DNA from: Chitinophagaceae bacterium | GTDB taxonomy: Bacteria; Bacteroidota; Bacteroidia; Chitinophagales; Chitinophagaceae | Direction of reading: 5' to 3' | Assembly: GCA_014379345.1 (NCBI GenBank) | Contig: JACMLY010000150.1 | Location: 1-64,000, forward strand | DNA: 64,000 nt | Part shown: positions 11,177 through 30,247 of the stretch, in pieces | Layout of the letters: each line of letters begins with the position of its first letter | Position numbering within the stretch: the first letter of the stretch is position 1 | Translations under genes and position numbers: made by a program | The notes under the pieces: generated by a model | Seen by the model: the letters and a program-made list of their open reading frames with translations, nothing else | Told to the model about the DNA's origin: nothing | The model's database searches: none

Positions 11177-11206
11177 ATTTGATTCAGGTTTCGAATATAT
11201 TAAGGC

Positions 11207-13226: not shown

Positions 13227-13242
13227 GTGATAGTAGGGGGTT

Positions 13243-14812: not shown

Positions 14813-14983
14813 TCGTCCCGAAACTACCCCCGATAATATTTCGAACAGTTGAAAATCACCTTAAACCTGCGAATCATTAAAATATTTTTTTGAAATGCCT
14901 ACACACAGAGTATAAAACCTATGCTGCCGTTGCGCATTTCTTCAACCCTCATATAATCATATTCCATTTTTAAAAATACAATC

Positions 14984-15787
14984 ATGAACTTACCCACACC
15001 GCTCGATATTATTCTTGACCCCTTAACGCATTATATAGTTGCTATGTACACCTTGCTTATTTTGTGGGAAACATTCTTCCCCGCACGAAAGCTGGTTGAC
15101 ATTAAATACTGGAAAGTCAAGGGAATTATTGTTTTCATTTTTTATTTTTTTCTATCTTCCTATTTGCCTTTGGTCACTAATCCGGCCCTTGAGCAGTTCA
15201 GGTTGATTGACTTGTCACAACTCGGATCTTTCGAAGGCGCCATTATTGGTGTTCTGCTGTATGAGTTTGGCGTTTACATCTGGCACCGTCAAATGCATCG
15301 CTCTGATTTTTTGTGGAAAACCTTTCACCAGATGCATCATAGCGCCGAGCGCCTGGATACCTATGGAGCTTTCTTTTTTAGTCCTTTGGATATGATCGGG
15401 TGGACTGTACTTTCAAGTATATGTTTTGCTTTACTTGTCGGACTAAGCCCTCAGGCAGTTACTGCCACATTGCTGATAACAAATTTCCTGAGCATCTTTC
15501 AACATGCAAATATCAATACCCCGAAATGGTTAGGATATATTGTTCAAAGGCCCGAAAGCCATACTATACACCACGCAAAAAATATTCACGGAAGTAATTA
15601 TTCAGACCTTCCCCTTTTCGATATCTTATTTGGGACTTTCCAAAATCCGGTAACATATATTCATGAAACCGGTTTTTACAACGGGGCTTCAAACCGGGTT
15701 AAAGATATGTTGCTGTTTAAAGATGTTTCGACACCCCATAATATTAAAGAGAAAACCAACGAGATTAAAGTTCTGGATCTTTCCTGA
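14984..15787 (+). CDS. Fatty acid hydroxylase / sterol desaturase family membrane protein
   Basis: A 267-residue integral membrane di-iron protein. Hydrophobic segments lie near 15-32, 46-64, 80-99 and 137-172. The histidine clusters of the family are all present: His101 and His105 (WHRQMH), His115, His118 and His119 (HQMHH), His174, and His193, His196 and His197 (SHTIHH). These bind two irons that activate oxygen for hydroxylation or desaturation of a lipid. The substrate is unknown; sphingolipid, carotenoid and ether-lipid enzymes all belong to this family. It appears to be a single-gene unit and is followed by a family C palindrome 20 bases after the stop codon. Confidence 0.9.
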   Translation: MNLPTPLDIILDPLTHYIVAMYTLLILWETFFPARKLVDIKYWKVKGIIVFIFYFFLSSYLPLVTNPALEQFRLIDLSQLGSFEGAIIGVLLYEFGVYIWHRQMHRSDFLWKTFHQMHHSAERLDTYGAFFFSPLDMIGWTVLSSICFALLVGLSPQAVTATLLITNFLSIFQHANINTPKWLGYIVQRPESHTIHHAKNIHGSNYSDLPLFDILFGTFQNPVTYIHETGFYNGASNRVKDMLLFKDVSTPHNIKEKTNEIKVLDLS

Positions 15788-15807
15788 CAATGAATTTTTA
15801 CTGACCT

Positions 15808-15866
15808 GTGTTTCTATGATCTTATATGGTAAAAAATTTACCACATAGGATCATAGCAACATAGAA
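15808..15866. repeat. Intergenic palindrome, family C (TATGATCCTATGTGGTAAA type)
   Basis: TTTCTATGATCTTATATGGTAAA pairs with TTTACCACATAGGATCATAG (from 15838). It lies 20 bases after the hydroxylase stop codon. Copies at 34867-34970 and 39297-39379 share the arm sequence. Confidence 0.85.
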
Positions 15867-16669
15867 AATGCACATAGAAGATTTCTATTTTTTACATTCC
15901 GGGCCTGATTTGTTTTCGGGTGATTTGCTGATAGCTGCTCTGGGAAGAATATTTTTTATTTGCTATGTCAGTGCTCAGTTTTCCCCAGCCATTAAAACAT
16001 CGCTTATTTTTTAGTACCTGCATAGGCAAATAATTCTCATAGCAGTTTTCCAATTGCCTCTACAGACTATTGTGACCGCCGTGTTCTACCCCGTTCGATG
16101 AGTATGATGCTGGAAATTTCATACCGGCTAAAGCCGTTAAAATTATTAATCGATATTATATCGGTTTTGTTTAAAACAGGAGCCTGCTCATTGCTGTTGA
16201 CCGGAAATCTTGTATAGATCCGGAGCCAAAACACACTTCATCGGATGTAATCTTTTAGCTTTTTCTATGAAGACTAAAAAGGTTTAAATACCTATTAAAT
16301 CAACAAAACTTTTCCGGTTAAAACCGAATTTAGAACACCCCATCAGGGTGTAATCTTTGCAGACCAATTCATAGTTTAGAATGTGCGCCGTACCAGCAGC
16401 ATCTTTCTTGCAGGAAAATGTCGGATTTTCTAAAAGTTTGAAATCAGGTTTTCCGAAAAATATTTATTTAACTTTAATGGTTAGGAGATGCTGCTCCTAG
16501 GGAGCGGATCCACGATTGCGATGTGTTTTCTACAAAGCGTAAACTGCTGACGGAGTTTTTTGGGCTAATCGTGCGTGAATGATTATTTTTTTTCTGATAA
16601 GATATTTAAAAATTGAGAGTTTACAATTTTATAATTGATATTATATAAATTATCATTCACCACTCACCA
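15867..16669. other. Gene-free stretch of about 800 bases with short palindromes
   Basis: No convincing reading frame in either strand. Visible structure: CCGGCTAAAGCCG at about 16126-16138; a TTCCGGTTAAAACCGAA hairpin around 16313-16329; a 10-bp inverted repeat AGCAGCATCT (16395-16404) with AGATGCTGCT (16486-16495) enclosing 81 bases; and a TCATTCACCACTCACCAT half element (16653-16670) of repeat family F running into the stop codon of the next gene. It may be the remains of mobile or REP-like elements. Confidence 0.4.
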
Positions 16670-17131
16670 TCAGGGCTTCAATTGTTCCTGTGGTTCTGAT
16701 AATTGCTTTATTTTTTGCAAGGCTCTATCCCATGCTTCAGACATTGATTCGTAAAAATCCTCACCCATATCGCATTCTATGGATAAAGTTGTCTTGCCGT
16801 TCTTTTCAGTTAATTGATATATTTCCCGTCCGCCTTTCACTGCCTGTGCGATCTCACCTTCATAATCCTCGATATCATTAACAACAATGCCCTGGTACTC
16901 CATGGATAAAATTTCGCCGGGTATGTTTTGGACAACTTTCGCCACCATTCCACTTTTTGTATTATCTGTAAATATGGCTTTGCTGCCAACTTTCCAGTCA
17001 GTTTTGGCGTGCGTACCTTCGCTGAATTCTGCATACCATGCCCGCGTGCAGTCGTCATCCAGTAATACATCCCAAACTATTTCTTTTGGAGCACTTAATT
17101 CGATAGATTTTTTGATCGGTAGTGTTTTCAT
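16670..17131 (-). CDS. SRPBCC / AHSA1-type domain protein
   Basis: A 153-residue soluble protein with the START-like pattern: an opening strand SIELSAPKEIVWDVLLDDDCTRAWYAEF, a central GSKAIF strand, and a C-terminal helix beginning FYESMSEAWDRALQKI. The AHSA1 branch fits best. Ligand and partner are unknown. It is transcribed divergently from the GlxA-type regulator at 17287 with 155 bases between the start codons, so that regulator may control it. It differs clearly from the other SRPBCC protein at 165-590. Confidence 0.85.
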   Translation of the reverse strand: MKTLPIKKSIELSAPKEIVWDVLLDDDCTRAWYAEFSEGTHAKTDWKVGSKAIFTDNTKSGMVAKVVQNIPGEILSMEYQGIVVNDIEDYEGEIAQAVKGGREIYQLTEKNGKTTLSIECDMGEDFYESMSEAWDRALQKIKQLSEPQEQLKP

Positions 17132-17251
17132 GATTTGCGTTTGTGTGTTGAAAAATTAGATTAACTGATTCACCATATTTATAATGTTGTCCTGACAAAG
17201 CTATTGGCATTATTGCTATTTGAAAGGGTGCATATACGGCTTTCTGAGGTG

Positions 17252-17282
17252 TTGATTGCGACATTCGGTTGGGCTAGTTTTG
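17252..17282 (+). promoter_or_regulatory. Promoter of the GlxA-type regulator, near-leaderless
   Basis: TAGTTTTG at 17275-17282 is an exact TAnnTTTG -7 element and a TTG at 17252-17254 lies 20 bases upstream as the -33 element. The start codon begins at 17287, so the predicted transcript start falls at or within a few bases of the ATG. Confidence 0.6.
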
Positions 17283-17286
17283 TTGC

Positions 17287-18255
17287 ATGAAACAGATCTC
17301 TATCCTTGTTCCCGTCGGTGATGTTTCGCTAAGCTGCATCGAAGGCCCCTATACATTTTTTAATAAATCAAATGAATTTTTAATGAGCTCCGGGAAACCC
17401 CCGCTATTCAATGTACAGTTGGTCGGTCTCAATCGGAAGGGGCAGGTGTACGATAAATTTTTTACTATTTATCCGGACATTGCGATTACAGAATGGGATC
17501 AACCAGATCTCATCATCATACCTGCCGTGAAGGGTGATATACATGGGATGATCGAAGAAAACAGCGGGTTTCTACCCTGGATTTTGCAGCAGTATAAAAA
17601 CGGAGCAGAAGTGGCGAGTCTTTGTATGGGTGCATTTTTGCTTGGCGCCACAGGCTTACTGAGGCAAAAAAAATGTTCTACCCACTGGCTTGCGGCAAAT
17701 GATTTCAGGAAAATGTTCCCAGATATAAATCTTGTGTCGGACAAAATCATTACAGATGAACATGGAATTTATTCGAGCGCAGGTGGTAATTCTTTCTGGA
17801 ACCTTTTGTTATACTTATTAGAAAAATATACAGACCGTGAAATGGCAATCCGATGCGCTAAATATTTTGAAATCGAAATAGATCGTACAAACCAGTTGCC
17901 CTTTGTAGTGTTCAAAGGACCAAGAGATCACCAGGATGAGCCGATAAAAAAGGCGCAAACATTCATCGAAAATAATTTTCAGTCCAGAATAACCGTCGTC
18001 CAGTTATCCATTCTGTTTGGGATTGGGAGAAGATCGCTTGAGCGAAGATTTAAAAAAGCTACTTACATTACGGTTGCTGATTATATCCATAAAGTAAAAA
18101 TAGAAGCTGCAAAAAAAAGCATTGAAACCGGCAGAAAAAGCATAGATGAGATTATGAGGGATATTGGCTATACCGACACCAAAGCTTTCAGAACAATTTT
18201 TAAAAAGACCACAGGATTATCTCCTATAGAATACTGGAATAGATTCAACGCATAA
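17287..18255 (+). CDS. GlxA-type transcription regulator (DJ-1/PfpI domain plus AraC HTH)
   Basis: A 322-residue regulator. Residues 1-190 form the DJ-1/PfpI-like domain with the nucleophile-elbow cysteine Cys113 in ASLCMGAFLLG. Residues about 225-320 are the AraC-type double helix-turn-helix: VVQLSILFGIGRRSLERRFKKAT and then IDEIMRDIGYTDTKAFRTIFKKTTGLSPIEY, the standard ending. Such proteins sense small metabolites, often amines or aldehydes, through the first domain. The divergent SRPBCC gene at 16670-17131 is the most likely target besides itself. A clear promoter ends only four bases before the start codon. Confidence 0.9.
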   Translation: MKQISILVPVGDVSLSCIEGPYTFFNKSNEFLMSSGKPPLFNVQLVGLNRKGQVYDKFFTIYPDIAITEWDQPDLIIIPAVKGDIHGMIEENSGFLPWILQQYKNGAEVASLCMGAFLLGATGLLRQKKCSTHWLAANDFRKMFPDINLVSDKIITDEHGIYSSAGGNSFWNLLLYLLEKYTDREMAIRCAKYFEIEIDRTNQLPFVVFKGPRDHQDEPIKKAQTFIENNFQSRITVVQLSILFGIGRRSLERRFKKATYITVADYIHKVKIEAAKKSIETGRKSIDEIMRDIGYTDTKAFRTIFKKTTGLSPIEYWNRFNA

Positions 18256-18569
18256 ACAGGTATTTGTTAAGGTTGTCTTTACAGATGCGTCTTATCCCCG
18301 CTTGCCGTTAAATACCTGACTGCTCAAGGACTCGAGAACTTCCATGGGCAGATAACTTGATCAATGTGCAGCAGTTACGCTCCATCCCTATCCCCAACCA
18401 CTCAAAAGCAAGCTATCCAGCAATATATTCATCTACTGGTACAATTATTTAATGATTTTTTAGGGATGTATTTATCTTATTAACTATAAGCGTTTTAGCT
18501 TGTTTTTTTCCAATAAACTGATAAATTAGGTTACAAATCCATACTGAGGGCTTACTAATATATAAGAAT
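18256..18569. other. Gene-free stretch ahead of the ECF sigma gene
   Basis: No reading frame or hairpin of note. The last 100 bases are very AT-rich (TTATTAACTATAAGCG and CTAATATATAAG) and should contain the promoter of the sigma gene, but no TAnnTTTG match is present, which would be consistent with a promoter read by an alternative sigma factor, possibly the encoded one. Confidence 0.4.
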
Positions 18570-19175
18570 ATGATGAAAGTTGAGCGGAGTTACACGGACG
18601 ATGAACTTGTAGATTCCATAGAAAGAGGCAAAGATTTAAACGGCGCCATCTTATACATATATCAACAATATTCAGATTCTGTAAGTTCTTTTATTAAAAA
18701 TCATGGGGGGAGTGTTCAGGATGCTGAGGATGTTTTCCAGGAAACGGTGGTAGCTTTTTTAAATATCATCAAAAATGGAAAGTATCGTAAAGAGTCAAGT
18801 GTGAAAACATTCCTGGTATCTGTGGCGAAAAATATCTGGTACAATGAGATAAAGAAAAGAGAAAGTTCTTACAACAGGGAAAAGATATTTGAAACCAGCA
18901 GGGACCTTAAAGAAGCTGATGTCAGTCATTACATCAGCGACCGTGAAATGAAGCAGCAATTCAGGGATTTATTGAATCAGCTTGATGAATCCTGCAGAAA
19001 AATTCTCTTGCTTTTTTACTATGAGAATCTTTCGATGAAAGAGATGGTTGATTATCTGCCTTACGAGAATGAACAGGTTGTAAGGAATAAAAAATATAAA
19101 TGTTTGCAGCATCTCACGGGTTTCGTAAAACAAAATCCATCAATGATAGAAAAATTAAAAGCCACCAATAAATAA
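18570..19175 (+). CDS. ECF-type RNA polymerase sigma factor
   Basis: A 201-residue sigma-70 family protein with only regions 2 and 4. Region 2 spans about 22-95 with DAEDVFQETVVAFLNII as the core-binding and -10 recognition helix pair and VKTFLVSVAKNIWYNEIKKRE after it. Region 4 spans about 130-190, including LDESCRKILLLFYYENLSMKEMVDYL and a helix-turn-helix with VVRNKKYKCLQHL. It starts a two-gene unit: the anti-sigma-like TPR protein begins six bases after this stop codon. Convergent to them is the TPR-CHAT unit. Regulation by the partner membrane protein is the usual arrangement for such sigma factors. Confidence 0.93.
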   Translation: MMKVERSYTDDELVDSIERGKDLNGAILYIYQQYSDSVSSFIKNHGGSVQDAEDVFQETVVAFLNIIKNGKYRKESSVKTFLVSVAKNIWYNEIKKRESSYNREKIFETSRDLKEADVSHYISDREMKQQFRDLLNQLDESCRKILLLFYYENLSMKEMVDYLPYENEQVVRNKKYKCLQHLTGFVKQNPSMIEKLKATNK

Positions 19176-19181
19176 TTTACA

Positions 19182-19952
19182 ATGTCACCAAACAATGCGA
19201 ATTTATTGATAGATCATCTGGATAAATCTCTTGAAGGAAAAGAATTGGAGGAGGTTGACCAGTTGATCCGGAATGATGAAGAAGCGGCAAATGAGTGGAA
19301 GTTGCTTCAGTTCACAGCATCAAATATTTACGAAGCAGGTTTATATGCACAGGTGGCTGCTGTCAAAGATCAGTATGCTGCCGGTAAGAGCAATGTTGGG
19401 TCGCAACGCACCAATGGTGGTATAGTACGAACCATGACTCGGAAAATGATGCGCGTAGCAGCCGTTCTTTTGTTCGTGAGTATTTCTGCAGTACTATATA
19501 AGTATATATCTGTTAATGACTCTAAGTTATATAATGAATATTATTCGTCCTATGAATTGAATACAACCAGAAGCCTGGGTGATGACAACGGACTGGATAA
19601 TGCCTACAAGAATAAAAATTGGAATGATGTTGTTGCAATCGTGAACGGAATACAGGATAAAAGTAGCAAGCATTTTTTCCTGGCGGGAGTAGCTAATCTG
19701 GAATTAAAACAATACGGACAAGCGATCAATGCATTTCAATCTGTGATCAATAAAAACCAGGTTGCAGGAGATGATTATTTTGGCGATGAAGCCGGGTATT
19801 ATTTAGCCATGAGTTATTTGGCCAATCGCGAAGCAGACAAGGCAGTACCCATCCTGGAGAAAATAAAGAAAGATAAAAGTCATTTATATAACCAGGCTGT
19901 CAGCAAAATGGGGATGGATTTTACAATTCTTGCGTTTAAAGCTCGTAACTAA
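19182..19952 (+). CDS. Single-span anti-sigma-like protein with periplasmic TPR region
   Basis: A 256-residue protein. Residues 1-85 are acidic and helical (LLIDHLDKSLEGKELEEVDQLIRNDEEA), the pattern of the cytoplasmic sigma-binding part of Bacteroidota anti-sigma factors, but without a zinc motif. Residues 91-107 form one membrane span (RVAAVLLFVSISAVLYKY). Residues 135-240 look like two to three TPR helices (HFFLAGVANLELKQYGQAINAFQSVI and YYLAMSYLANREADKAVPILEKI) and would lie in the periplasm. It is coupled to the ECF sigma gene by a six-base gap. The function as anti-sigma factor is inferred from position and topology, not from a recognised domain. Confidence 0.8.
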   Translation: MSPNNANLLIDHLDKSLEGKELEEVDQLIRNDEEAANEWKLLQFTASNIYEAGLYAQVAAVKDQYAAGKSNVGSQRTNGGIVRTMTRKMMRVAAVLLFVSISAVLYKYISVNDSKLYNEYYSSYELNTTRSLGDDNGLDNAYKNKNWNDVVAIVNGIQDKSSKHFFLAGVANLELKQYGQAINAFQSVINKNQVAGDDYFGDEAGYYLAMSYLANREADKAVPILEKIKKDKSHLYNQAVSKMGMDFTILAFKARN

Positions 19953-20176
19953 TTGATTATAAAGGCAAAGAAAAATTCAAAATAAGGTTACATTTTATTT
20001 AGCAGCGATTACTAATATATAGAACAGGTTCTTTGAAATGCAGCCGTCACTTTTTTAAGAAGCAAAATTTGAAATGCTGTTTGAGCCAATAACATCTAAG
20101 CCCTAAACCGGAGAAACAGAATGTTGGTCAAACGATAAAGCGCAACGCTAATATCCAGAAAAACCATCCAGGTCCG

Positions 20177-20340
20177 GATCCAATGAAAGAAACCGAAACC
20201 ATGTCCAATGAAACCAGTCCAGATCCAATGAAAGAAACCGAAACCATGTCCAATGAAACCAGTCCAGATCCAATGAAAGAAACCGAACCATGTCCAATGA
20301 AACCAGTCCAGATCCAATGAAAGAAGCCGAAACCATACCG
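20177..20340. repeat. 45-bp tandem repeat, about 3.5 units
   Basis: Units start at GATCCAATGAAAG at 20177, 20222, 20267 and 20311; the lengths are 45, 45 and 44 bases, the last having lost one A. The fourth unit decays after about 30 bases. Each unit contains CCAATGAAA twice, 25 and 20 bases apart, and weaker CCAATG words continue to 20470. A length divisible by three suggests a coding origin, but the 44-base unit breaks the + frame, and no frame has a convincing start. The - strand is open with a Trp/Phe/Gly-rich translation unlike any protein I know. Confidence 0.9.
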
Positions 20341-20510
20341 GTTGAAAAGCCATCCAATCCCAATGAAACCTATTCCTATGAAGAAACCTTATCAATATCA
20401 AATGAAGCCATCCAATCTATCCAAAATGAAAATCAGTCCAGAAGCTATCTAATCCAGTGATCCAATCCCATGAACTCAACCCTGATCGTAAAAAGTCGAC
20501 ACACTGAAAT
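20341..20510. other. Gene-free remainder between the sigma unit and the CHAT gene
   Basis: Together with 19953-20176 this fills the gap between two convergent units. It continues the degenerate CCAATGAAA words. An 11-bp perfect inverted repeat, AAAAAGTCGAC (20490-20500) and GTCGACTTTTT (20559-20569), followed by nine T on the + strand, overlaps the end of the CHAT gene and could end transcripts arriving from the sigma unit. Confidence 0.5.
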
Positions 20511-23354
20511 CTAAGTTCGCACAACCTCTTTTCTTAAAATCTTCTGTTTATGAATTGCGTCGACTTTTTTTTTCATTCTTACAGCTGCAAGCAGTAATAT
20601 TCCCGGAACAGATAAAAAAATTAGCGCCCATTTAGTCTTTGATGGCGGCTCACAAATAGGTTCAATATCTCCAATAAGGATGAGATTTGACCAGTAGCCC
20701 GGATTTTTTGAGTGCTCGGACTTCTTGATATAATCGATCTTAGCCAGCTGTAAGGCCTTTGATTTTGTATATCCTTGTTTCAGGTATACGTGAAATTGTT
20801 TCAGTATCTCACAAGTAGCTTTATCGTTCGCTTTCCATAAACTATTGATAGAGCTGGCGCAACCGGCATATGCAAACCCTCTGGCCAGGCTGATCACTCC
20901 TTCGTTGTTTACCAATTCTCCATCACCGGTTTCACATGCGCTGACAATAACAAGTTTGGTAGCATCCATTTGTAAGCCATAAAGTTCCTCGAGGTACAAA
21001 CGGTCTTCCAGTAACGAATTGCTGTGAGGATAAAACGCAATATAAGATCCGGCTGCATTATTGATATTGGCTACTGCATGCGTTGCAAGATGTACAACAG
21101 GATACGTATTGACATCTTTTAAGAACTTCTCTTTGGTAGCTGTATAGTCTCTGTATTGCACACCTTCAAGATCTTTGATCTCTTCCCACGAAGCCGGCAG
21201 GCGATTCCAGGTTGCGATGCCTCTCTTTGCCGGATCAAGGTTCGACTGTCCGGCAAATGGAGCGAATGCTAAACTGGAATATGTTCCGGGTAGGGCTTTT
21301 TTGCCTATGGCTGAAATAAAACGGGAGGAAAGCTGGTAACTGATAACTGTTGTTTCTACCAGGCTTGCAGAACTGCCATGTACAGGAAGTGATTCAAATG
21401 GGAGGAAATATAAAATACCATCCGGAATAATGATCCACTCATTCTTTTGTGTAATATTTGATTTTAGCGGATGTATTAATTGCTGGTATATTTTGTTCCC
21501 AATGATTTGTCCTTTGAATTTTCTTCCACTCTCTGTATTCCTGAGTAGGTTGAGCCAGTCTGTGATCCGTTGCTGCAATACCGGGAAAGAGTCAATTTCA
21601 ACATGGCGGGTACTGTTACTTGTGATAATGAACGCATGCAGTTTCACCGGTGTGGCATAAAAACTGATCAACGCCTGATCACCAGTTAATTTTTCCTGCA
21701 GGTCTTTTATCCGGGGGTAAGAATCATCGTATTTCAGTTTATAATATTTACTGTTTTGCTCCAGCTGTTTATAGAGCAGTGACAGTTCGATCTCATATCC
21801 CTCTTTCTCTCGTGTGATGCCTTCTATTTCCGTTTTGTCATGCGACAGATCCAGTTTAACGTTCAGCCGGGCTATATTGTATTTTATATTTTTAGTTCTG
21901 TCTGTGAGGGACGCTTCCTCCGCATTCATTCTGGAGATCATTTGCTCCTTTAAATTCGACGCAACCACAGACCCTTTGTTACGTTCACTGATTAAAAATG
22001 CTTTTTCAAGATAGCCGCTATCGGGTTGCAATCGTTGCAATTCGATGCATACAAATATGGCTTTCTCATAAATCTGCCTGCTTCTCTTTTTAAGTAGCAG
22101 TTTTGCATCATCGGTATCGTAAGTCTTTTCAATATAATCAAGCAACCGGAGAGTAAGTTCGTACACCTCATAAGAAGCCCTTAAATATTTGACTTGAGGA
22201 TTGGTCTTATACATCAATTCAAAAACCATTGCTTTTTGGAATAGAGCCTCAAAAAGTCTATAGTACGCAAATGCCTCTGTAAATCTTGAAGGGTTAGAAT
22301 AAATATCAGAATTCTTGAAATTGCTAAACAACATGATCGCTTTTTGCAGGCAGTTAAGGGTGGTATGATACTGTTTCCGTTGTATAAAAACTTCTGCCCG
22401 GTACAGTTGGTTAATGGCGATATCCAGATTGTTAACACGAATATTCTTTTGGTTTAACAGGGACTCAAGTCTGTCTAAAAAATAGACGGATGAATCGGTT
22501 TGTTTTAATTCTAATTGAACAAATGCCATTTCATTATATACTCCCGGTAATTCCAATGCATTCACTTTTCGAAAACATTGCAATGCATCAGTGTATTTTT
22601 TAAGTCCCGCATTAGCGCGGCCCATATTCATATAAATATAATTGGCCGATACTTTGTATTTCAGGATATCATTATAGATGCCCAATGAAGAATTGTAGTC
22701 GCCTAATTTATAAAAGGCAGTAGCGATATTGGTGCTGATGTTCACTGCCGAAACCGTATCCAATGGAGTTTTGTCTTTTAAGAGTGCAAGTGCCTGCCTG
22801 AAATAATTTTTACTTTGATTGTAGTTACCGTTATCGTAATACAAGGCGCCCAAAGCGTTATACAATCTCGCTTTATCCTCACTGATTGTAGAAAGATTGA
22901 TGAGTACTTCCGCTTTCCGTAGAAAAAATCTTGCCGAATCGAAATTATTCAAATGGTAATAGGCGGAGCCGGTGTACACATATGTTCTGAAAATCAAGGA
23001 ATCGTTGACCGAGTGATTTGCCTTATTAAAATGTACGGCATTCAGGTAAGCATTCTTGGCGTCAACATATCTGCCTTGAACATCGAGCAGAATGCCCTTT
23101 TTTACATAGGCATGGAACAACAAGATCTCGTTATAACAGGCGCTTGTTTCTAATTTATCGATTACCTGTTGAAACAGCAATATTGCATGACTATCTGTTT
23201 CATCTGTAGGATTGGAGAGGTTGAATAACTTATCGGCTCTATTGTAAATATGACTTGTCTCTGTATAGCAGGGATTGTTGTTTCCTGCACCGGCAATGGC
23301 GAAGAAAAGATTAAATATGATTAACCATAAAAATCTGCCGGCATAGGATTGCAC
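20511..23354 (-). CDS. TPR-CHAT caspase-like protease, membrane anchored
   Basis: A 947-residue protein starting at a GTG; a stop codon lies three codons upstream in frame, so no longer start exists. Residues 1-23 are a signal peptide. TPR-type helices fill about 80-460 (for example YNALGALYYDNGNYNQSKNYFRQAL). A coiled-coil stretch covers 465-540. The CHAT domain covers about 560-895, with catalytic candidates His759 in VVHLATHA and Cys807 in VSACETGDGE, then GVISLARGFAYAGC and the closing W-S. A membrane span (909-925) and a basic tail follow. The topology places TPR and CHAT in the periplasm. It is last in a unit with a lipoprotein and a small membrane protein, and convergent to an ECF sigma unit. 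Confidence 0.92.
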   Translation of the reverse strand: MQSYAGRFLWLIIFNLFFAIAGAGNNNPCYTETSHIYNRADKLFNLSNPTDETDSHAILLFQQVIDKLETSACYNEILLFHAYVKKGILLDVQGRYVDAKNAYLNAVHFNKANHSVNDSLIFRTYVYTGSAYYHLNNFDSARFFLRKAEVLINLSTISEDKARLYNALGALYYDNGNYNQSKNYFRQALALLKDKTPLDTVSAVNISTNIATAFYKLGDYNSSLGIYNDILKYKVSANYIYMNMGRANAGLKKYTDALQCFRKVNALELPGVYNEMAFVQLELKQTDSSVYFLDRLESLLNQKNIRVNNLDIAINQLYRAEVFIQRKQYHTTLNCLQKAIMLFSNFKNSDIYSNPSRFTEAFAYYRLFEALFQKAMVFELMYKTNPQVKYLRASYEVYELTLRLLDYIEKTYDTDDAKLLLKKRSRQIYEKAIFVCIELQRLQPDSGYLEKAFLISERNKGSVVASNLKEQMISRMNAEEASLTDRTKNIKYNIARLNVKLDLSHDKTEIEGITREKEGYEIELSLLYKQLEQNSKYYKLKYDDSYPRIKDLQEKLTGDQALISFYATPVKLHAFIITSNSTRHVEIDSFPVLQQRITDWLNLLRNTESGRKFKGQIIGNKIYQQLIHPLKSNITQKNEWIIIPDGILYFLPFESLPVHGSSASLVETTVISYQLSSRFISAIGKKALPGTYSSLAFAPFAGQSNLDPAKRGIATWNRLPASWEEIKDLEGVQYRDYTATKEKFLKDVNTYPVVHLATHAVANINNAAGSYIAFYPHSNSLLEDRLYLEELYGLQMDATKLVIVSACETGDGELVNNEGVISLARGFAYAGCASSINSLWKANDKATCEILKQFHVYLKQGYTKSKALQLAKIDYIKKSEHSKNPGYWSNLILIGDIEPICEPPSKTKWALIFLSVPGILLLAAVRMKKKVDAIHKQKILRKEVVRT

Positions 23355-23403
23355 TGTGGTTTAAGTTGTGCAATGGAACGTTTATCGGCATACGCATATT
23401 GTA

Positions 23404-24303
23404 TCAGGAGCGCGTTATTACGATTAATGGTGGTCTGGGATTGCCTTTTACTGAAATCAGCTGCTGGTTTATTATATTCGACCTTTTTTGCTGCACATAA
23501 TCAACGACTGCTTGTGGAACCTGGGATTTCTTTTCATAATATACCATTTGAACATCCATTTTCTGTAGAGCTTTGCTGCTTTTATCGTTCAGTTTATAGT
23601 AAACAGAAACTCTAATTGCCGTTCCATTAACCGGATTACGGCCAAAGGCTTCATTCTCTAAAGTCTTTTTTAAATCAATGGTACCACTGATACTTTTGAT
23701 CTTTACTTTTTTATTTGAAGTAGAAAACTCACATTTATCGTTACCATCGTCATCATCATCATCGTCCTCATCAGGGTTAGCGATACAAATTGAGCTGGTT
23801 TGGAGGTTGGCGTCGAAATAAGGCTGTGCGGTTGTTTGATTTTTCCCCAGTATATGGATGCTGTCAACATAAGATGCTCCGGAAAGGATAAGGGTTTGAA
23901 GACAGGTATCCTTGGTGCCAATTTTCACAAAGGCGACGATATATCGCAAACCGGTTTCACTTTTAGTGACATTAATGCTACCGCTCAATGAATCGAGTAC
24001 CAATCCCTGGGGCCATGAATAATATTTTCCCGCACCAGGGTCATTCAGCGGTTTAACAATATGATCTTTTCCCGATTTTGATTCGTTGTAGATCAAGGAA
24101 TCCTTGTACTTCGGCCCATTCGGGCATTGCATGTTAGATGATCCTTCAGGAAGTATTCCGGCCGGAGATTCCTGCCGAAGAATCGAATCGATGTTAACTT
24201 TTTCAGGAAATACCTCTTCTGTTTGTCCGTTTTTTGAACAGGCGAAAAGATATACCAATGCCAGAAATATAAGCGCATTGCGACTTAAAACTTTCTTTTT
24301 CAT
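23404..24303 (-). CDS. Lipoprotein of unknown function with poly-aspartate segment
   Basis: A 299-residue protein. The N terminus is a lipoprotein signal (NALIFLALVYLFAC) with Cys22 as the lipid site. The body is beta-rich with Cys pairs. Residues 178-189 are an almost unbroken Asp/Glu run (DEDDDDDDDGND) encoded by a trinucleotide repeat at 23743-23772; it resembles loops that bind calcium. The stop codon lies 49 bases before the start of the TPR-CHAT gene, on the same strand. I do not recognise a domain. A role as a surface partner of the CHAT protease is possible but rests on position only. Confidence 0.8.
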   Translation of the reverse strand: MKKKVLSRNALIFLALVYLFACSKNGQTEEVFPEKVNIDSILRQESPAGILPEGSSNMQCPNGPKYKDSLIYNESKSGKDHIVKPLNDPGAGKYYSWPQGLVLDSLSGSINVTKSETGLRYIVAFVKIGTKDTCLQTLILSGASYVDSIHILGKNQTTAQPYFDANLQTSSICIANPDEDDDDDDDGNDKCEFSTSNKKVKIKSISGTIDLKKTLENEAFGRNPVNGTAIRVSVYYKLNDKSSKALQKMDVQMVYYEKKSQVPQAVVDYVQQKRSNIINQQLISVKGNPRPPLIVITRS

Positions 24304-24386
24304 GGGGTTGGGATCAGGGTTAAAACAAAATATAAAAAATTTCCGGAGATTTCAATTTTCCGTTGATCTTTATTTGCTTTGCAAAA

Positions 24387-24569
24387 TCATATTGATAAAG
24401 CCAACCTGCTAAACTCCTGTATTAAAATAACACTATAGGCCAGGCAATAAAGCATTGCAAATCCGACAAACAAAAGAAAGGATTTGCTTTGCCGAGAATA
24501 ATATTTATAAAATGGCAGTTCTATCTCCCTCGTTTGAGCAGTTGACAAAAAATCATCTTTCATTTCCAT
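24387..24569 (-). CDS. Small single-span membrane protein
   Basis: A 60-residue protein with a charged N-terminal half (MEMKDDFLSTAQTREIELP) and one hydrophobic helix in the C-terminal half (FLLFVGFAMLYCLAYSVILI). The frame extends upstream to a TTG at 24629, but the ATG at 24569 gives a usual start. It is first in line on the - strand ahead of the lipoprotein (83-base gap) and the TPR-CHAT protease. No family is recognised; small size makes the call uncertain. Confidence 0.55.
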   Translation of the reverse strand: MEMKDDFLSTAQTREIELPFYKYYSRQSKSFLLFVGFAMLYCLAYSVILIQEFSRLALSI

Positions 24570-24756
24570 AATTGATCTTTTAAAATTATTGTAGAGGATC
24601 TGCTGCTCATTGCCTCTGGAATATTGCAACTGATTTATATTAGTACATACCGGGCTAAGTTTTGTAACCAGAACATTAAAATTTTCTCAACATCCTCTAC
24701 TACAGATAGCGGGGATTTGTGTATCATTGATTGCCATTGCTTTATGCAAGTGAAAT

Positions 24757-25854
24757 TCATTGCAGTCCTTCCCACCAGGCAGTGGATTGAATTGTATCGT
24801 TTAAATAAACCGGCTCCCCGATAAGTGGATGCAAAAGTTCAACTTTTTTACGCTTCGCCTCTTCTATTATCCTGATCATAGGCTCATCCCATGGGTGGAC
24901 AGACAGGGAGAATTTCGACCAATGCACGGGTAGTAATCTTTTAGCATTTAGATCCTGCGAAGCCTGAACTACTTCTTCCGGCATCATGTGAATGTATTTC
25001 CAGTTATTATCGTATTGGCCGTTTTCAAGAATGGCAAGATCAAAAGGACCAAACTTATTTCCGATTGTGGCAAAGTGCTTGTCATAACCCGAATCGCCAC
25101 CTATAAAGATCTTCATGGTAGGTGTTTGAAAAATAAATGACATCCATAAAGTCTGATTCCGTTTAAATCCCCGGCCTGAAAAATGCCTGGCAGGGGCCGT
25201 ATTTACGGTAAAGCCTTCCTCCAATAGCACTTCTTCATTCCAATCCCTTTCAATAATAATATTCTTGTCAAATCCCCAACGCTCCAAATGCTCACCCACC
25301 CCAAGACCCGTTATTACTTTATTTATTTTAGGCTTCAGCTTTTTGATCGTATCGTAATCAAGATGGTCCCAATGATCATGGGTGATGAACAGGTAATCGA
25401 TCTCCGGAATTCCGTCTGTTGTATACACATCACTCCCTTTAAAACTCCGCGTTGTGAATTTTATCGGGGATGCACTTCCGCTTAAAACAGGATCAACCAG
25501 GATTTTTTTGCCATCAATTTGCATGAAGTATGACGAATGACCGAACCAAACCAGAATGTCCTTATCCCGATCGAGGTGTAAAAGGTCAATCGTTTTAGAA
25601 GGCAGTACTGCGGATGGGGTGCCTCTTTTGTTCCTTCCAAAGAAAAATTCTTTCATAACACCATAGTAGCTGGCTCCCTCCGTCAGGGCTGGTGTTTTAC
25701 TGAGATTCCGGAATTGTCCGTCTTTATAATAGGGAGATTTCCGGATCAGCTCAAGCCGCTCACCCGATACAGCACTGCCAAATTGGGGCCGTTGCATAAA
25801 TACATATACCGCAATGATCAAAATGATTATTATAATTGCAATCACTATAAGCAT
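24757..25854 (-). CDS. Metallo-beta-lactamase-fold hydrolase, NAPE-PLD/UlaG-like
   Basis: A 365-residue protein with an N-terminal membrane anchor (LIVIAIIIIILIIAVYVFM). The metallo-hydrolase motif is FITHDHWDHLDYD, followed by the His in PARHFSGRGF, the Asp in FIGGDSGYD and the final His in LPVHWSKF. The WFGHSSYFMQIDGKKILVDPVLSG opening and the overall length fit the branch that includes N-acyl-phosphatidylethanolamine phospholipase D and UlaG lactonases. An envelope-facing phospholipase or phosphodiesterase is a reasonable guess. It is a single-gene unit; the GH172 gene is divergent. Confidence 0.88.
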   Translation of the reverse strand: MLIVIAIIIIILIIAVYVFMQRPQFGSAVSGERLELIRKSPYYKDGQFRNLSKTPALTEGASYYGVMKEFFFGRNKRGTPSAVLPSKTIDLLHLDRDKDILVWFGHSSYFMQIDGKKILVDPVLSGSASPIKFTTRSFKGSDVYTTDGIPEIDYLFITHDHWDHLDYDTIKKLKPKINKVITGLGVGEHLERWGFDKNIIIERDWNEEVLLEEGFTVNTAPARHFSGRGFKRNQTLWMSFIFQTPTMKIFIGGDSGYDKHFATIGNKFGPFDLAILENGQYDNNWKYIHMMPEEVVQASQDLNAKRLLPVHWSKFSLSVHPWDEPMIRIIEEAKRKKVELLHPLIGEPVYLNDTIQSTAWWEGLQ

Positions 25855-26053
25855 GTGTTTAATTCATTTTTTATTGGTTAATTCGTCTGAGGTTACGTGT
25901 TAAAAGTGCGATTGTAGCCATGCCAAGGTAGGGCCATTGAAACCTGTCAGGACAAGGTTATCGCACAACTTATAACATACAATGACGAAACTGGCAGCAA
26001 ATCATTTTAAAAATGCCAAAAAATAAACTACGCCGAAATTTAAACCTTTGCAT

Positions 26054-27199
26054 ATGCGCTCAATACTTTTTTTAGCAGTTACATTTCTTGCATCGTCGCT
26101 GGTCATTGCACAAAGATCAAATTTCAACGGGTTGGATATGAACCTGGGAAACCTGTACAGGTTGTCCGATGCCAAAACAAGATCAATCAGCCCCGAAAAC
26201 TTTACCGGAGAGCCCGGCAAGGGGGGTATGATGCCGCTTAAACAAGGCGTAAGTGGAAACCAGGCCCGGGACTTGGGACTTGGATGGAAAGTAAATCCTT
26301 ATGTATATATCGAAGGGGGCAAAACGATCACGTTGGCAGAAATACAGGGTTCCGGTGCAGTTCAACATATCTGGATGACACCTACAGGCAACTGGCGTTT
26401 TTCTATACTTCGGATTTATTGGGATGATGAAAAGGAACCGTCGGTAGAAGTTCCTGTTGGAGACTTTTTTGGAATGGGTTGGGGCGAATATGCTCATTTA
26501 AATTCCCTACCGGTAACCGTTAATCCGGGAAGTGCATTTAACTCTTACTGGGTAATGCCTTTTCGAAGAAAATGTAAGATTACGATGGAGAATCTGAGCG
26601 TCGATAGAATGAATGTGTATTACCAGGTTGATTATACCTTAACCAGTGTGCCTGAAGACGCTGCTTATTTTCACGCACAGTTCAGAAGGAATAATCCTAC
26701 CCAGGGGTCATTATATACTTTGGTCGATAGTATTAGGGGGAAAGGTCAGTATGTTGGAACATATATGGCCTGGGGTGTCAATAACAATGGATGGTGGGGT
26801 GAGGGTGAAATAAAATTTTTTATGGATGGAGATAAAGAATTTCCTACGATCAATGGTACCGGTACCGAAGATTATTTTTGTGGTTCATATAATTTTGAAA
26901 ATAGGAAAACGCGGCAATACCAGGAATTTTCGACTGCTTATGCGGGTTTGCACCAGGTGGTGCGACCTGATGGTGTATACACTTCGCAACAGCGATTTGG
27001 TATGTACCGCTGGCATATTGTAGATCCGATCCGTTTCGAGAAAGATCTAAAAATTACCATACAAGATCTGGGATGGCGAAGCGAAGGGCGCTATTTACCA
27101 CAGCAGTCTGATATCAGTTCCGTTGTGTATTGGTACCAGACAGAACCGCATGCTCCTTTTCCAAAGCTTCCGGAAAAAAATAAACTGGAAACGAACTAG
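26054..27199 (+). CDS. DUF2961 glycoside hydrolase family 172 protein
   Basis: A 381-residue secreted protein. Residues 1-20 are a signal peptide (MRSILFLAVTFLASSLVIAQ). The DUF2961/GH172 landmarks are IQGSGAVQHIWMTP, the FFGMGWGEYAHLNSLP segment, NSYWVMPFRRK, and GTGTEDYFCGSYNF with the catalytic-region glutamate. The founding members act on alpha-D-fructofuranosides or alpha-D-arabinofuranosides; the substrate here is unknown. A TTG two codons upstream is in frame, but the ATG at 26054 begins the signal peptide. A -7-like AACCTTTG ends four bases before it. It is followed directly by repeat family F. Confidence 0.9.
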   Translation: MRSILFLAVTFLASSLVIAQRSNFNGLDMNLGNLYRLSDAKTRSISPENFTGEPGKGGMMPLKQGVSGNQARDLGLGWKVNPYVYIEGGKTITLAEIQGSGAVQHIWMTPTGNWRFSILRIYWDDEKEPSVEVPVGDFFGMGWGEYAHLNSLPVTVNPGSAFNSYWVMPFRRKCKITMENLSVDRMNVYYQVDYTLTSVPEDAAYFHAQFRRNNPTQGSLYTLVDSIRGKGQYVGTYMAWGVNNNGWWGEGEIKFFMDGDKEFPTINGTGTEDYFCGSYNFENRKTRQYQEFSTAYAGLHQVVRPDGVYTSQQRFGMYRWHIVDPIRFEKDLKITIQDLGWRSEGRYLPQQSDISSVVYWYQTEPHAPFPKLPEKNKLETN

Positions 27200-27280
27200 G
27201 TGAGTGGTGAGTGGTGAATTGTGAGAGTGAAAATATTCAATTCATTCTAAATAAAATAATAACACATTGACCATTCACCA
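27199..27280. repeat. Intergenic inverted repeat, family F (GTGAGTGGTGAATTG type)
   Basis: GGTGAGTGGTGAGTGGTGAATTG (from 27199) faces TTGACCATTCACC (27267-27279). The left arm starts on the last base of the GH172 stop codon. Similar words are found at 1-53 and 16653-16670. Confidence 0.7.
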
Positions 27281-27305
27281 AAAAACCCCGCATAGACATG
27301 CAGGG
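27280..27305 (-). terminator. Intrinsic terminator pointing left, no gene assigned
   Basis: On the - strand CCCTGCAT (305-298 reversed), loop GTCT, ATGCGGGG and then six T. One C-A mismatch interrupts the eight-base stem. The genes on both sides are on the + strand, so this terminator would serve a short - strand transcript from 27306-27404, or antisense transcription. Confidence 0.55.
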
Positions 27306-27404
27306 TATTCAAAACTAACTTGCTTTATGAAATTACAATTGTTAAGACGACATAAAAAAGCATTGCTTGCGCTTGTCGAAAATATTTTAATAAAATAAAA
27401 TAAC

Positions 27405-27809
27405 ATGAAACCGACAATCAATTGCATTACACTTCCGGTTGATGACCTAAGGCAATCGTTTAAGTTTTACCGCGATGGATTGGGTTTATTGGCAGATGAG
27501 CCTGATGAATCCAGCGACCATGTAGCATTTACGTTAGATGGAAAACTGTATCTGGTGATTCTGTTACGACATGAATTCAGAAAGTTCACAGAATTGGCAA
27601 ATCAGGACAATGCTGCTAAAGGATCATCTGAATGTATTGTGAGTTATTTCACCTCCAATAAGGAAGAAGTGGATATAATTCTGAAGAATGTTGAAAAAGC
27701 AGGTGGTGTATCAACGGGAAATGCGGTTGAGCGGCCCTGGGGTTATGCCGGGTATTTCAAAGATCCTGATGATCATTTGTGGGAAATAATGTGGAATCCC
27801 GCACTTTGA
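27405..27809 (+). CDS. VOC (glyoxalase/bleomycin-resistance) family protein
   Basis: A 134-residue protein of two beta-alpha-beta-beta-beta modules: it opens TINCITLPVDDLRQSFKFYRDGLGL and closes RPWGYAGYFKDPDDHLWEIMWNP, the standard VOC signature with a C-terminal metal glutamate. Metal-ligand positions are only partly canonical (no His at the start of module one). It may be a dioxygenase-like or binding protein; no substrate can be named. A family D repeat follows 28 bases after the stop codon. Confidence 0.88.
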   Translation: MKPTINCITLPVDDLRQSFKFYRDGLGLLADEPDESSDHVAFTLDGKLYLVILLRHEFRKFTELANQDNAAKGSSECIVSYFTSNKEEVDIILKNVEKAGGVSTGNAVERPWGYAGYFKDPDDHLWEIMWNPAL

Positions 27810-27836
27810 AGAGCAGTGTGATATCATTCAGAACTG

Positions 27837-27950
27837 TGTGACTCTGTGCGACACCTCCTTCGCCTTTGTGGTTAAATGGGTCTTACATCCAAAGACTCCA
27901 ATGCTGCAGGAGTTTTTTAACCACAGAGGCGCGGGAGGTATGCCGGAGTG
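27837..27950. repeat. Intergenic inverted repeat, family D, second copy
   Basis: ACACCTCCTTCGCCTTTGTGG plus TTAAA (27851-27876) faces TTTTTTAACCACAGAGGCG (27913-27931) and a GGGAGGTAT tail. Arm words match the copy at 13115-13226. Confidence 0.8.
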
Positions 27951-28081
27951 TTCTGCCATCCATAGGATTTTCAAATGGAAAGTTTCATTGTTACAATATT
28001 TACCAACTTTAAGGCATCGGATTTTAAAAATCGATAACAAACATTATCATTGTTTCTTTTTTACCAATTTAACTGCAAGCC

Positions 28082-30247
28082 TTGCGTATATTTTTTCTAT
28101 ACCTTATCTGCCTTTGTTGTTCTTCCATGCAGGCGCAAAAAAAGAACGGGTCATATAAATTACGTATTCACAAATCCAGTTCACCGATTAAGATCGATGG
28201 TGTTATGGATGAAGTCTCCTGGCAACAGGCCGAATCAGCCAGTGATTTTTTCATGGTATTGCCGATGGATACAAGCCATGCGAAAGTTCGTACTGAAGTG
28301 AGAATGACCTATGATGATCAGTTTCTATATCTTATTGCAACCTGCTTCCATGCAGTTCCGGGTCCTTACTATGTCGAATCATTAAGGCGCGATTTTGCTT
28401 TTGGCAAGAATGATAATTTTCTATTGTTCATGGACCCTTTCGACGACCAGACCAACGGTTTTTCATTTGGAGCCAATGCTGCGGGGGCGCAGTGGGACGG
28501 CACCATGTATGAAGGGGGAAAAGTAGATCTGAGTTGGGATAACAAATGGGAATCAGTTGTGAAGAATGATGATGACAAATGGGTTTTCGAAATGGCTCTG
28601 CCATTCAAATCCATACGCTATAAAAAGGGCATTTCCGAGTGGGGCATCAACTTCAGCAGGCTGGATCTGAAAACCACCGAAAAGAGCAGTTGGACTCCTG
28701 TGCCTCGGCAATTTCCGACTGCTTCCCTTGCCTATTCAGGAATACTGGTATGGGATCAACCGCCACCACCTGCCGGTGCAAACATATCTTTGATCCCCTA
28801 TGTGCTCGGCGGAAGCGTCAAGGATTATGAAAATAATAAACCTAGTGAATACAAGAAGGAAATCGGGCTCGATGTTAAAGTAGCAATCACCTCGTCCCTG
28901 AATCTCGACCTGACTGTAAATCCGGATTTCTCACAGGTGGAAGTAGACCGCCAGGTTACCAACCTCGACCGGTTTGAATTATTTTTTCCGGAAAGACGGC
29001 AATTTTTTCTTGAGAACGGAGACCTGTTTGCCAACTTTGGCTATCAAACCATACGACCTTTTTTTTCAAGGCGTATTGGACTTGAAGCACCAATTCGTTT
29101 CGGCGCACGGCTAAGCGGTAAACCAAGTAAGAATTGGAGACTGGGACTTATGAATATGCAAACAGGAAAAGTTAGAGAACTCGGGCTTCCTTCACAAAAT
29201 TTTACCGTAGCTTCTCTGCAACGAAAAGTGTTTTCGCGATCTAATATCGGGCTGATCTTTATAAATAAGCAATCACTGAATTATCAGCGAGATTCTGCCA
29301 AGCCGGCTTTTTCAGATTACAACCGGAATATAGGGGCCGAATGCAACCTGGCATCATCCAATAATTTGTGGACGGGGAAAATGATGTGGCTTAAATCCTT
29401 TAGCCCAAAGCTTTCAGGAAAAGATATGGTGCACGCCGCACACCTGCAATATTCCAGCCGCCGCTTGTTTGTTTGGTGGCAGCACGAATATGTAGGCAAA
29501 AACTATAATGCCGAAACAGGATATACGCCCCGGAGAAATTATATTAAGCTCAATCCACAGATCGGGTATACTTTCTTTCCCAAAGGAAGTAAGGTATTGA
29601 GTCATGGACCAAAGTTTTTTTATGGAGGATTTTTCAATGAATCGTTTAAGAGAACAGATGATGAACATTTCCTGGGATATATCATAGCCTTCCGAAACCA
29701 GGGCAGCTTTCTGGGATGGGTTGCGCACGACTATGTAAAACTTTTATTACCATTTGATCCGACAAATTCACTGAAGGATACACTGGCACGTGGAACCGAA
29801 CACCGGTGGTATGCATACGGAACAGATTTTATTTCAAAGCCGCAAAGCGTTTTTACCTTCGGTTTTTCAACGCGTTATGGCGGTTATTATGCGCACGGCA
29901 CACGTTTGAATCTTACCGCCGATCTTGGTTACCGGGTTCAACCGTATATCAGCCTTGCTGTTAACACAAGCTATAATCATATCACCCTGCCAATGCCCTG
30001 GAATAAAACAACATTCTGGCTGATCGGTCCCAGATTGGACATTACCATGACCAATAAATTATTCTTCACCACCTTTTTTCAATACAACGGCCAGTTAAAA
30101 AACATGAACCTGAATACGCGTTTCCAATGGCGATATAAACCTGCATCCGATCTGTTCATTGTATATACCGATAATTATTTTCCTGCTCCTTTATCCGTTC
30201 GCAACAGGGCGTTGGTTTTGAAGTTGACCTACTGGTGGAACATGTAA
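28082..30247 (+). CDS. DUF5916 outer-membrane protein with CBM9-like N-terminal domain
   Basis: A 721-residue secreted protein. The signal peptide (RIFFLYLICLCCSSMQAQ) begins at a TTG: a stop codon lies four codons upstream in frame and there is no in-frame ATG before residue 16, so TTG is the only start that keeps the signal peptide. Residues about 25-215 are the carbohydrate-binding family 9-like domain (SSPIKIDGVMDEVSWQQAE). The rest is the DUF5916 beta-barrel-like part (VNPDFSQVEVDRQVTNLDRF, FPERRQFFLENGDLF) ending in an aromatic strand. The function is unknown in this family. It precedes the two-component genes on the same strand with a gap of about 100 bases. Confidence 0.9.
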   Translation: MRIFFLYLICLCCSSMQAQKKNGSYKLRIHKSSSPIKIDGVMDEVSWQQAESASDFFMVLPMDTSHAKVRTEVRMTYDDQFLYLIATCFHAVPGPYYVESLRRDFAFGKNDNFLLFMDPFDDQTNGFSFGANAAGAQWDGTMYEGGKVDLSWDNKWESVVKNDDDKWVFEMALPFKSIRYKKGISEWGINFSRLDLKTTEKSSWTPVPRQFPTASLAYSGILVWDQPPPPAGANISLIPYVLGGSVKDYENNKPSEYKKEIGLDVKVAITSSLNLDLTVNPDFSQVEVDRQVTNLDRFELFFPERRQFFLENGDLFANFGYQTIRPFFSRRIGLEAPIRFGARLSGKPSKNWRLGLMNMQTGKVRELGLPSQNFTVASLQRKVFSRSNIGLIFINKQSLNYQRDSAKPAFSDYNRNIGAECNLASSNNLWTGKMMWLKSFSPKLSGKDMVHAAHLQYSSRRLFVWWQHEYVGKNYNAETGYTPRRNYIKLNPQIGYTFFPKGSKVLSHGPKFFYGGFFNESFKRTDDEHFLGYIIAFRNQGSFLGWVAHDYVKLLLPFDPTNSLKDTLARGTEHRWYAYGTDFISKPQSVFTFGFSTRYGGYYAHGTRLNLTADLGYRVQPYISLAVNTSYNHITLPMPWNKTTFWLIGPRLDITMTNKLFFTTFFQYNGQLKNMNLNTRFQWRYKPASDLFIVYTDNYFPAPLSVRNRALVLKLTYWWNM

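Follow-up and report, generated by a model that had tools for sequence, protein, structure and literature searches.

To our knowledge, little is understood of how Bacteroidota signal from the envelope through their many extracytoplasmic function (ECF) sigma factors, and most proteases that open the cognate anti-sigma factors are not known. Here we analyze a locus on contig JACMLY010000150.1 of the Chitinophagaceae bacterium assembly GCA_014379345.1 (positions 1 to 64,000 of the forward strand; this 64,000-nucleotide stretch is hereafter called the window), at which genes for an ECF sigma factor, a single-span anti-sigma protein with tetratricopeptide repeats (TPRs) and a TPR-CHAT protein lie side by side, and which we consider likely to code for a membrane-spanning sigma switch with a caspase-like protease at its center. 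An earlier note, made by a model from the sequence alone, had described these three genes together with those for a lipoprotein and a small membrane protein, and all five are present as it described them (Table 1). What it overlooked is a promoter-like motif that recurs three times, one copy of which starts a third transcription unit inside the 558 bases that separate the stop codon of the anti-sigma gene from that of the convergent CHAT gene. The sigma and anti-sigma genes are spaced by 6 bases.

Table 1. Genes, codons and promoter-like elements of the locus, in window coordinates
Feature	Position	Strand	Basis
Motif GGTTACA-N17-TACTAAT before the sigma gene (putative autoregulation)	18529-18559	+	
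ECF sigma factor, 201 aa	18570-19175	+	Open reading frame and profile matches
Single-span anti-sigma protein, 256 aa (predicted cytoplasmic N domain, one membrane helix, periplasmic loop, TPRs)	19182-19952	+	
Codons of anti-sigma Arg130-Ser131, where the cut is proposed, in the juxtamembrane loop on the periplasmic side	19569-19574	+	
Motif copy 34 bases past the anti-sigma stop, starting the third unit	19986-20018	+	
Third transcription unit, with no conserved frame and with 45-base repeats; ends in a AAAAAGTCGAC/GTCGACTTTTT hairpin and overlaps the CHAT 3′ end	20019-20578	+	
TPR-CHAT protease, 947 aa, predicted periplasmic, with signal sequence and C-terminal membrane anchor	20511-23354	-	
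Codon of catalytic Cys807 of CHAT	20934-20936	-	
Codon of catalytic His759 of CHAT	21078-21080	-	
Codon of CHAT Glu725, predicted S1-pocket residue covarying with the anti-sigma cut-site residue	21180-21182	-	
Lipoprotein, 299 aa, C-terminal RPP motif, kept in this sub-family	23404-24303	-	
Small membrane protein, 60 aa, not conserved	24387-24569	-	
Motif before the small protein/lipoprotein/CHAT operon	24637-24669	-	

Protein products of the locus

Profile searches with the sigma factor recovered Pfam Sigma70_r2 (E = 5.5e-11) and TIGR02937 sigma70-ECF (3.1e-19), along with a region 4 match of 22.5 bits that lies below its cut-off of 25.7 bits; the protein thus has the build of an ECF sigma factor, with regions 2 and 4 only (the latter sub-cut-off) and a gene coupled to the next one. 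The product of that next gene contains TPRs in its C-terminal part, and its AlphaFold model (mean predicted local distance difference test score, pLDDT, of 89) has a helix at the hydrophobic stretch (residues 83-110) and further helices from 136 to 255. When this model was compared with the PDB the best match had an E value of 0.007, and the matches listed were TPR or helical-repeat proteins. The N domain matches Pfam zf-HC2, an anti-sigma-type domain, weakly in 10 of 21 members (best 3.5e-4) and not in the window protein, and a PDB profile search with the N domain returned no anti-sigma protein. Two weak matches of the whole anti-sigma profile to the N domains of MucA and RseA (PDB, E 0.087 and 0.14) were lost with the N domain alone and went unused.

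The convergent gene, which has a GTG start, codes for a protein with a Pfam CHAT domain (PF12770, 1e-47) and TPRs. His759 lies in the motif HLATHA and Cys807 in SACETG, both being invariant in 42/42 proteins, so that the domain displays the His-Cys pair of a clan CD CHAT protease. Judged by eye, its N terminus is hydrophobic and signal-like and its C-terminal hydrophobic stretch is followed by a basic tail; on account of these features the protease is predicted to sit in the periplasm, anchored to the membrane. Its AlphaFold model is fair (mean pLDDT 81.7), and the best structure match is Csx29 of Craspase (8eey: Z 29.1, root-mean-square deviation 10.8 over 498; 8eex: Z 28.4, deviation 3.1 over 385), with separase 5fby at Z 25.6 (3.4 over 314). 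A phage origin was set aside, the CHAT protein having no match in 50,697 phage records.

Co-occurrence and gene order

Across 244 Chitinophagaceae genomes, with the anti-sigma protein called at E < 1e-14 and CHAT at E <= 1e-60, each gene was found in 42 genomes, in 40 of them jointly and in two alone (Fisher p 5.6e-41, uncorrected for kinship). Co-occurrence beyond this genome and a conserved order, which the earlier note had asked to be tested, were both seen: 40 of the 42 anti-sigma-bearing genomes also hold CHAT, and the two genes lie on opposite strands, facing each other, in 40/40 family-A loci with both genes in the stretch. The anti-sigma gene stands alone in G205 (79% complete) and G220, and CHAT in G028 and G118 (G and L numbers are our handles for genomes and loci). 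In G220 the anti-sigma gene is a remnant without the N domain, in which a Pro replaces the loop Arg discussed below; this fits, weakly, a decay following loss.

By hand count the two genes are close on one contig in 34 of the 40 genomes and on different contigs in six. In three of these (G023, G122, G208) a gene lies at a contig end; in the others (G063, G239, G242) the stretch downstream of the anti-sigma gene holds no CHAT, and the genes look truly apart. Among named genomes, the CHAT gene occurs in Niastella, in Longitalea and in one Chitinophagaceae metagenome-assembled genome. The gene order persists while identities drop to 22-30%, and in other families of the class. In family B the sigma, anti-sigma and CHAT genes mostly form one tight run, and in family C CHAT lies 0.2-2.2 kb downstream.

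Covariation between the anti-sigma loop and the protease

Where the anti-sigma protein passes from the membrane to its TPRs, residues 125-137 of the loop vary, the one exception being Arg130, which is present in 44 of the 45 sub-family proteins. The residue after it is Gly in 30, Ser in 11 and Asp in 4 of the 45, one of these Asp residues belonging to the exception, L069, which has a Pro in place of the Arg. Over 49 pairs with Arg in this column (Arg-type) it is the most conserved residue of the anti-sigma protein; that set was chosen by the Arg, which makes the count over 45 proteins the fairer one. The same Arg-Gly/Ser is found in relatives from other families of the class, with L126 lacking it, and in families B and C a Met takes the Arg130 column (Met-type), followed mostly by Gly, Ser or Asp. 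The putative P1 residue is read here from one alignment column, in which far relatives may be misaligned.

On the side of the protease, position 725 is, among 59 CHAT proteins, the only column of 690-900 that is acidic in Arg-type and not in Met-type loci. In 80 anti-sigma/CHAT pairs it is the single column of 815 in which the residues of the two types do not overlap: it is Glu in 49/49 Arg-type pairs and Leu, Ser, Ala, Phe, Trp or Gly in 31/31 Met-type pairs. A search of the phylum with a broad anti-sigma profile retrieved 60 further loci, and the 35 usable pairs tested showed no exception (30 Arg/Glu, 2 Met/non-Glu and 3 Lys/non-Glu), the three Lys-type pairs featuring Met, Ile or Val at CHAT 725 and Glu at 844. 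Phylum-wide this amounts to 115 pairs with all CHAT proteins distinct, in which Arg goes with Glu725 in 79/79 and Met or Lys with another residue in 36/36. Dropped before this count were L150 (cut-off CHAT), L223 (CHAT more than 10 kb away) and L190, L192, L194, L226 and L233 (no intact His, Cys or 725 in the alignment); it also omits L138 and anti-sigma proteins without a CHAT in the stretch or within 6 kb. Of the 80 pairs, L116, L120 and L083 showed no neighboring sigma gene; for the 35 later pairs the presence of one was a requirement.

In the CHAT model residue 725 lies between the first (694-698) and second (731-735) strands of the catalytic domain, with His759 after the third strand and Cys807 after the fourth, as in clan CD. 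From this position in the fold, 725 is predicted to be the place where clan CD proteases read a P1 Arg. Asp163 of RgpB and Asp365 of MALT1, from the same region, meet the P1 Arg, and separases bind it by a Glu or Asp there (Glu917 in a model of the C. elegans enzyme; PMC4626109, PMC4357240). Asp2151 of separase further reads the P1 Arg, with Lys670 at that place in Craspase (PMC9729208); judging by its distance after the Cys, we infer that CHAT Asp844, which is Asp in 77/79 Arg pairs and a gap in 2, is the equivalent of Asp2151. A PDB sequence search with the CHAT catalytic domain gave no Csx29 match.

These observations bear on a reading in which CHAT and the anti-sigma TPRs constitute a non-proteolytic sensor complex, a split form of DdvA, their conserved residues being kept for binding. 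TPRs are indeed found in both window proteins, and the Foldseek search with the CHAT model places DdvA (8rot, 8rw5), by name both an anti-sigma factor and a CHAT domain-containing protein, at ranks 9 and 10. However, a mere binding partner is hard to reconcile with a His759-Cys807 pair that is invariant in 42/42 proteins, or with a covarying residue at the S1-type place, and we regard such a complex as improbable.

In a tree of the CHAT proteins computed with columns 725 and 844 removed, the anti-sigma residue changes three times and column 725 likewise three times. The Lys clade is nested in an Arg clade (Shimodaira-Hasegawa-like approximate likelihood-ratio support 99, quick tree), L232 and L234, which are related to it, being Arg/Glu. 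Since 13/15 of the CHAT proteins not taken as the nearest partner of an anti-sigma protein also have Glu725, this is the common state, its loss going with Met and Lys. The window's genome itself contains in addition, on two further contigs, a Met-type sigma/anti-sigma pair (anti-sigma G000:C163, L160) and a Ser725 CHAT (G000:C36, L124) belonging to the clade that matches Met-type anti-sigma proteins; the two possibly make up a second, insulated switch.

Two further sets of loci stand beside these pairs. L205, L208 and L217, from one other family, show Gln or Leu in place of Arg130, with CHAT absent from the retrieved stretch; they are possible natural CHAT-free controls. L189, L194, L196, L221 and L225 form a sub-family with the loop motif FTE/FVE-R-G/S, in which a CHAT gene or fragment lies 4.2-4.5 kb away on the other strand.

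A promoter motif shared by the transcription units

The pattern GGTTACA-N(14-20)-TACTAATAT has three copies in the window and none in 100 shuffles, the sigma-side copy beginning 41 bases ahead of the sigma start codon. A looser form, GTTACA-N(15-19)-TACTAATA, has three matches in the 5.14 Mb genome to which the window belongs, all at this locus, against two for the reversed control. In the relatives, promoter slots were scored as filled at >=12/14 letters right, the sigma slot spanning -150 to +120; some sigma starts are called too far upstream (e.g., L007, L050, L061). By this measure the motif fills the sigma slot in 36/41 loci, the third slot in 21/25 gap-bearing loci and the slot of the CHAT operon in 10/36 (the window and nine others), with an off-site rate that predicts 0.002-0.006 matches per slot. 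All three slots are occupied in four loci, namely the window, L044, L058 and L067. Over the 244 family genomes the motif in its exact form occurs 30 times, in 19 genomes; half of these occurrences (15, from 8 genomes) fall at the locus, and the reversed control occurs 12 times (hand-summed). The sigma gene's own operon and its predicted target operons have a promoter motif in common, as judged from the motif only, and, because it recurs in their promoter slots, the sigma factor very probably drives its own operon and the third transcript; for the CHAT operon this holds in part of the relatives. In L055 and L065 the gap after the anti-sigma gene displays two tandem copies of the motif and, further on, a GGGAAGCAGCTACTGCTTCCC hairpin.

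A proposed membrane-spanning sigma switch

Taken together, these features make it likely, on comparative sequence grounds, that the locus codes for a switch in which the caspase-like CHAT protein is the site-1 protease. In the resting state the ECF sigma factor would be kept at the inner membrane by the N domain of its anti-sigma partner. Upon an envelope signal, the periplasmic, membrane-anchored TPR-CHAT protein would cleave that partner behind Arg130, in the loop exposed next to the membrane; candidates for activating CHAT are its own TPRs, those of the anti-sigma protein and the lipoprotein. The remaining stump would then probably be destroyed by an RseP-like M50 protease, of which the window's genome has one (at G000:C94), together with cytoplasmic proteases, and the freed sigma factor would transcribe its own operon, the CHAT operon and the third transcript from GGTTACA-N17-TACTAAT promoters, closing a positive feedback loop. 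The genes, their conservation and co-occurrence, the common promoter motif, the invariant Arg and its covariation with CHAT 725 are observed; sigma binding, topology, cleavage, the order of the steps, the sign of the feedback and the signal are what we infer in this scheme. The idea of the earlier note that CHAT cuts the periplasmic part of the anti-sigma protein draws support from the invariant Arg130 and from the way in which Arg, Met or Lys in the loop tracks CHAT residue 725 over the 115 pairs.

Several points weigh against this reading. The covariation rests on about three changes, two of them on well-supported branches, and a sign test on so few cannot reach 0.05; a single clade uniting both Met groups is not rejected by the approximately unbiased test (p-AU 0.487). 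In 17 of the 35 new pairs the CHAT is 2-6 kb away, and therefore the wrong partner may have been assigned in some. TPR-only proteins (4wne, Z 25.4) score about the same Z as separase, via the TPR half, and the zf-HC2 match of the anti-sigma N domain is weak and missing in the window protein. Ahead of the CHAT operon of the Niastella/Longitalea loci the motif was not found, and feedback through CHAT is therefore not universal. Moreover, 19 of the 60 extra anti-sigma proteins have no CHAT in the retrieved stretch, and 13 of these 19 carry Arg and 2 Lys. Those of family D (L138, L141, L142, L173) are Arg-Gly with no CHAT in 12-14 kb, and wider stretches of this family gave a Glu725 CHAT about 3 kb from the sigma gene in G102, one weak partial match and, in one case, none. 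As such CHAT-less proteins keep the Arg, it could be read by another enzyme or be structural; alternatively, they may use a CHAT elsewhere in the genome, as could be the case for the Met-type pair of the window's genome (L160 with the CHAT of L124).

The retention of Arg in those 13 of 19 proteins, like the sigma-type promoter before the CHAT operon in the window and nine other loci, would suit a system in which CHAT is only an effector of the regulon, directed at other envelope proteins, and the anti-sigma protein is opened by a different protease (DegS-like or of another kind). A pure effector need not track the loop, though, and the putative P1 residue changes with CHAT 725 in 115/115 pairs; the tight gene run of family B argues in the same direction, which leaves this an unlikely explanation. 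The small number of changes could also be taken to mean that the gene pair is kept by descent with no role in signaling, the loop Arg being conserved for the fold of the first TPR. Yet a fold role would not follow protease residue 725, and the order of the genes is retained at 22-30% identity and in other families of the class, with a promoter motif in common; we accordingly consider this the least probable of the alternatives.

Extending the proposed site-1 role of CHAT beyond this locus, there is about an even chance that Bacteroidota possess a large family of sigma switches working in parallel, every one of them served by a caspase-like site-1 protease of its own and insulated from the others by a one-residue Arg/Met/Lys code read against positions 725 and 844, with more than one code in single genomes. 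For the locus type itself, a caspase-type site-1 protease with a predicted single cut residue and a predicted specificity pocket would offer a mechanism for the more than 100 loci seen, a natural relative of the CRISPR-linked Craspase that needs no guide RNA, and orthogonal pairs of protease and substrate ready for use.

Accessory genes and the third transcription unit

The earlier note had also proposed the lipoprotein and the small membrane protein as sensor parts. For the latter no relative was found upstream of the lipoprotein gene in other loci, and this lack of conservation makes it an unlikely sensor. The lipoprotein accompanies CHAT in 38/40 family-A loci, its lipobox Cys22 being invariant in 21/21 aligned sequences, but was not found beside most CHAT genes of other families. 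Searches of Pfam, NCBIfam and PADLOC with a limit of E 1 yielded nothing for it.

As for the third unit, we discarded the idea of a protein gene for the window clade, having seen no conserved reading frame in the window and its nearest kin. The transcript may instead be a regulatory RNA. In the window it folds worse than shuffles (z 2.96), its 45-base repeats being unstructured; in L049 (1757-2053) three 97-base units fold far better than shuffles (z -4.4 to -6.0). The gap of the Niastella/Longitalea loci (L049, L046, L007) contains hairpin units in several copies that carry GAAACCTG motifs; the third-unit stretch ends with a GTCGAC hairpin resembling a terminator. Rfam gave one sub-threshold match on the window, which we take as chance, and only tRNAs in six relatives.

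Twelve distant loci (L053, L054, L056, L058, L059, L062, L064, L066, L067, L076, L080, L083) encode similar lipoproteins at the place of the third unit; that of L053, the only one scanned, is a DUF4382 protein (1.3e-19). In four such loci a lipocalin-like protein precedes the lipoprotein (L067, 19.8 bits, below its cut-off). In L066 the anti-sigma/CHAT gap extends over 4.6 kb (~10,624-15,266) and displays several same-direction frames, two of them with CxxCH motifs.

Relationship to known systems

The control of RseA-sigmaE by DegS and RseP, like other site-1 protease systems, is outlined in PMC10028731. The locus resembles this cascade in its single-span anti-sigma protein, the proposed periplasmic first cut, the M50 protease in the genome and the ECF sigma factor with its own promoter motif. 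It differs in that the site-1 role is proposed for CHAT, a cysteine protease of clan CD, rather than for an HtrA serine protease such as DegS, and in that the periplasmic part of the anti-sigma protein is, unlike that of RseA, a TPR domain.

Csx29 is a cytoplasmic protease that is switched by Cas7-11 and target RNA. The window CHAT, as judged by eye, appears to have a signal sequence and a membrane anchor and its anti-sigma protein a membrane span, which speaks against a cytoplasmic place for the two. What the two share, beyond Csx29 being the best structure match of the CHAT model, is the assembly of a TPR-CHAT protease, a sigma inhibitor and an ECF sigma factor in one locus, as described for the type III-E CASP/Craspase system with its Csx29, Csx30 and CASP-sigma (PMC10028731, PMC9729208); the former also reports three motif copies of CASP-sigma inside its own locus. 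Type III-E systems have a CRISPR (clustered regularly interspaced short palindromic repeats) array beside the genes and a Cas7-11 effector of the repeat-associated mysterious protein (RAMP) kind. Here a CRISPR link was rejected, as 14000-30000 holds no array-like repeat and the genome, 97.96% complete, no RAMP protein (PF03787). The CHAT of Craspase is also distinguished by its Lys670 at the place of separase Asp2151 (PMC9729208).

In Myxococcus xanthus, DdvS/DdvA combines an ECF sigma factor with a transmembrane anti-sigma factor and a CHAT domain (PMC4374960). DdvA unites the anti-sigma factor and CHAT in one polypeptide, whereas in the window and the 115 pairs they are encoded by separate genes. 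Separase has a similar caspase-type domain after a helical part and a P1 Arg read by acidic residues (PMC4626109 and PMC9729208); unlike the window set it is eukaryotic, cuts cohesin and has no sigma link. The open-literature titles and abstracts that we searched mention no Bacteroidota set of sigma factor, TPR anti-sigma protein and CHAT, though the ECF classification may describe a group with CHAT neighbors. Without claiming membership in either the DegS/RseA or the Craspase system, we propose by analogy that the locus would act as a DegS/RseA cascade whose first protease is of the caspase type, and as a Craspase free of CRISPR.

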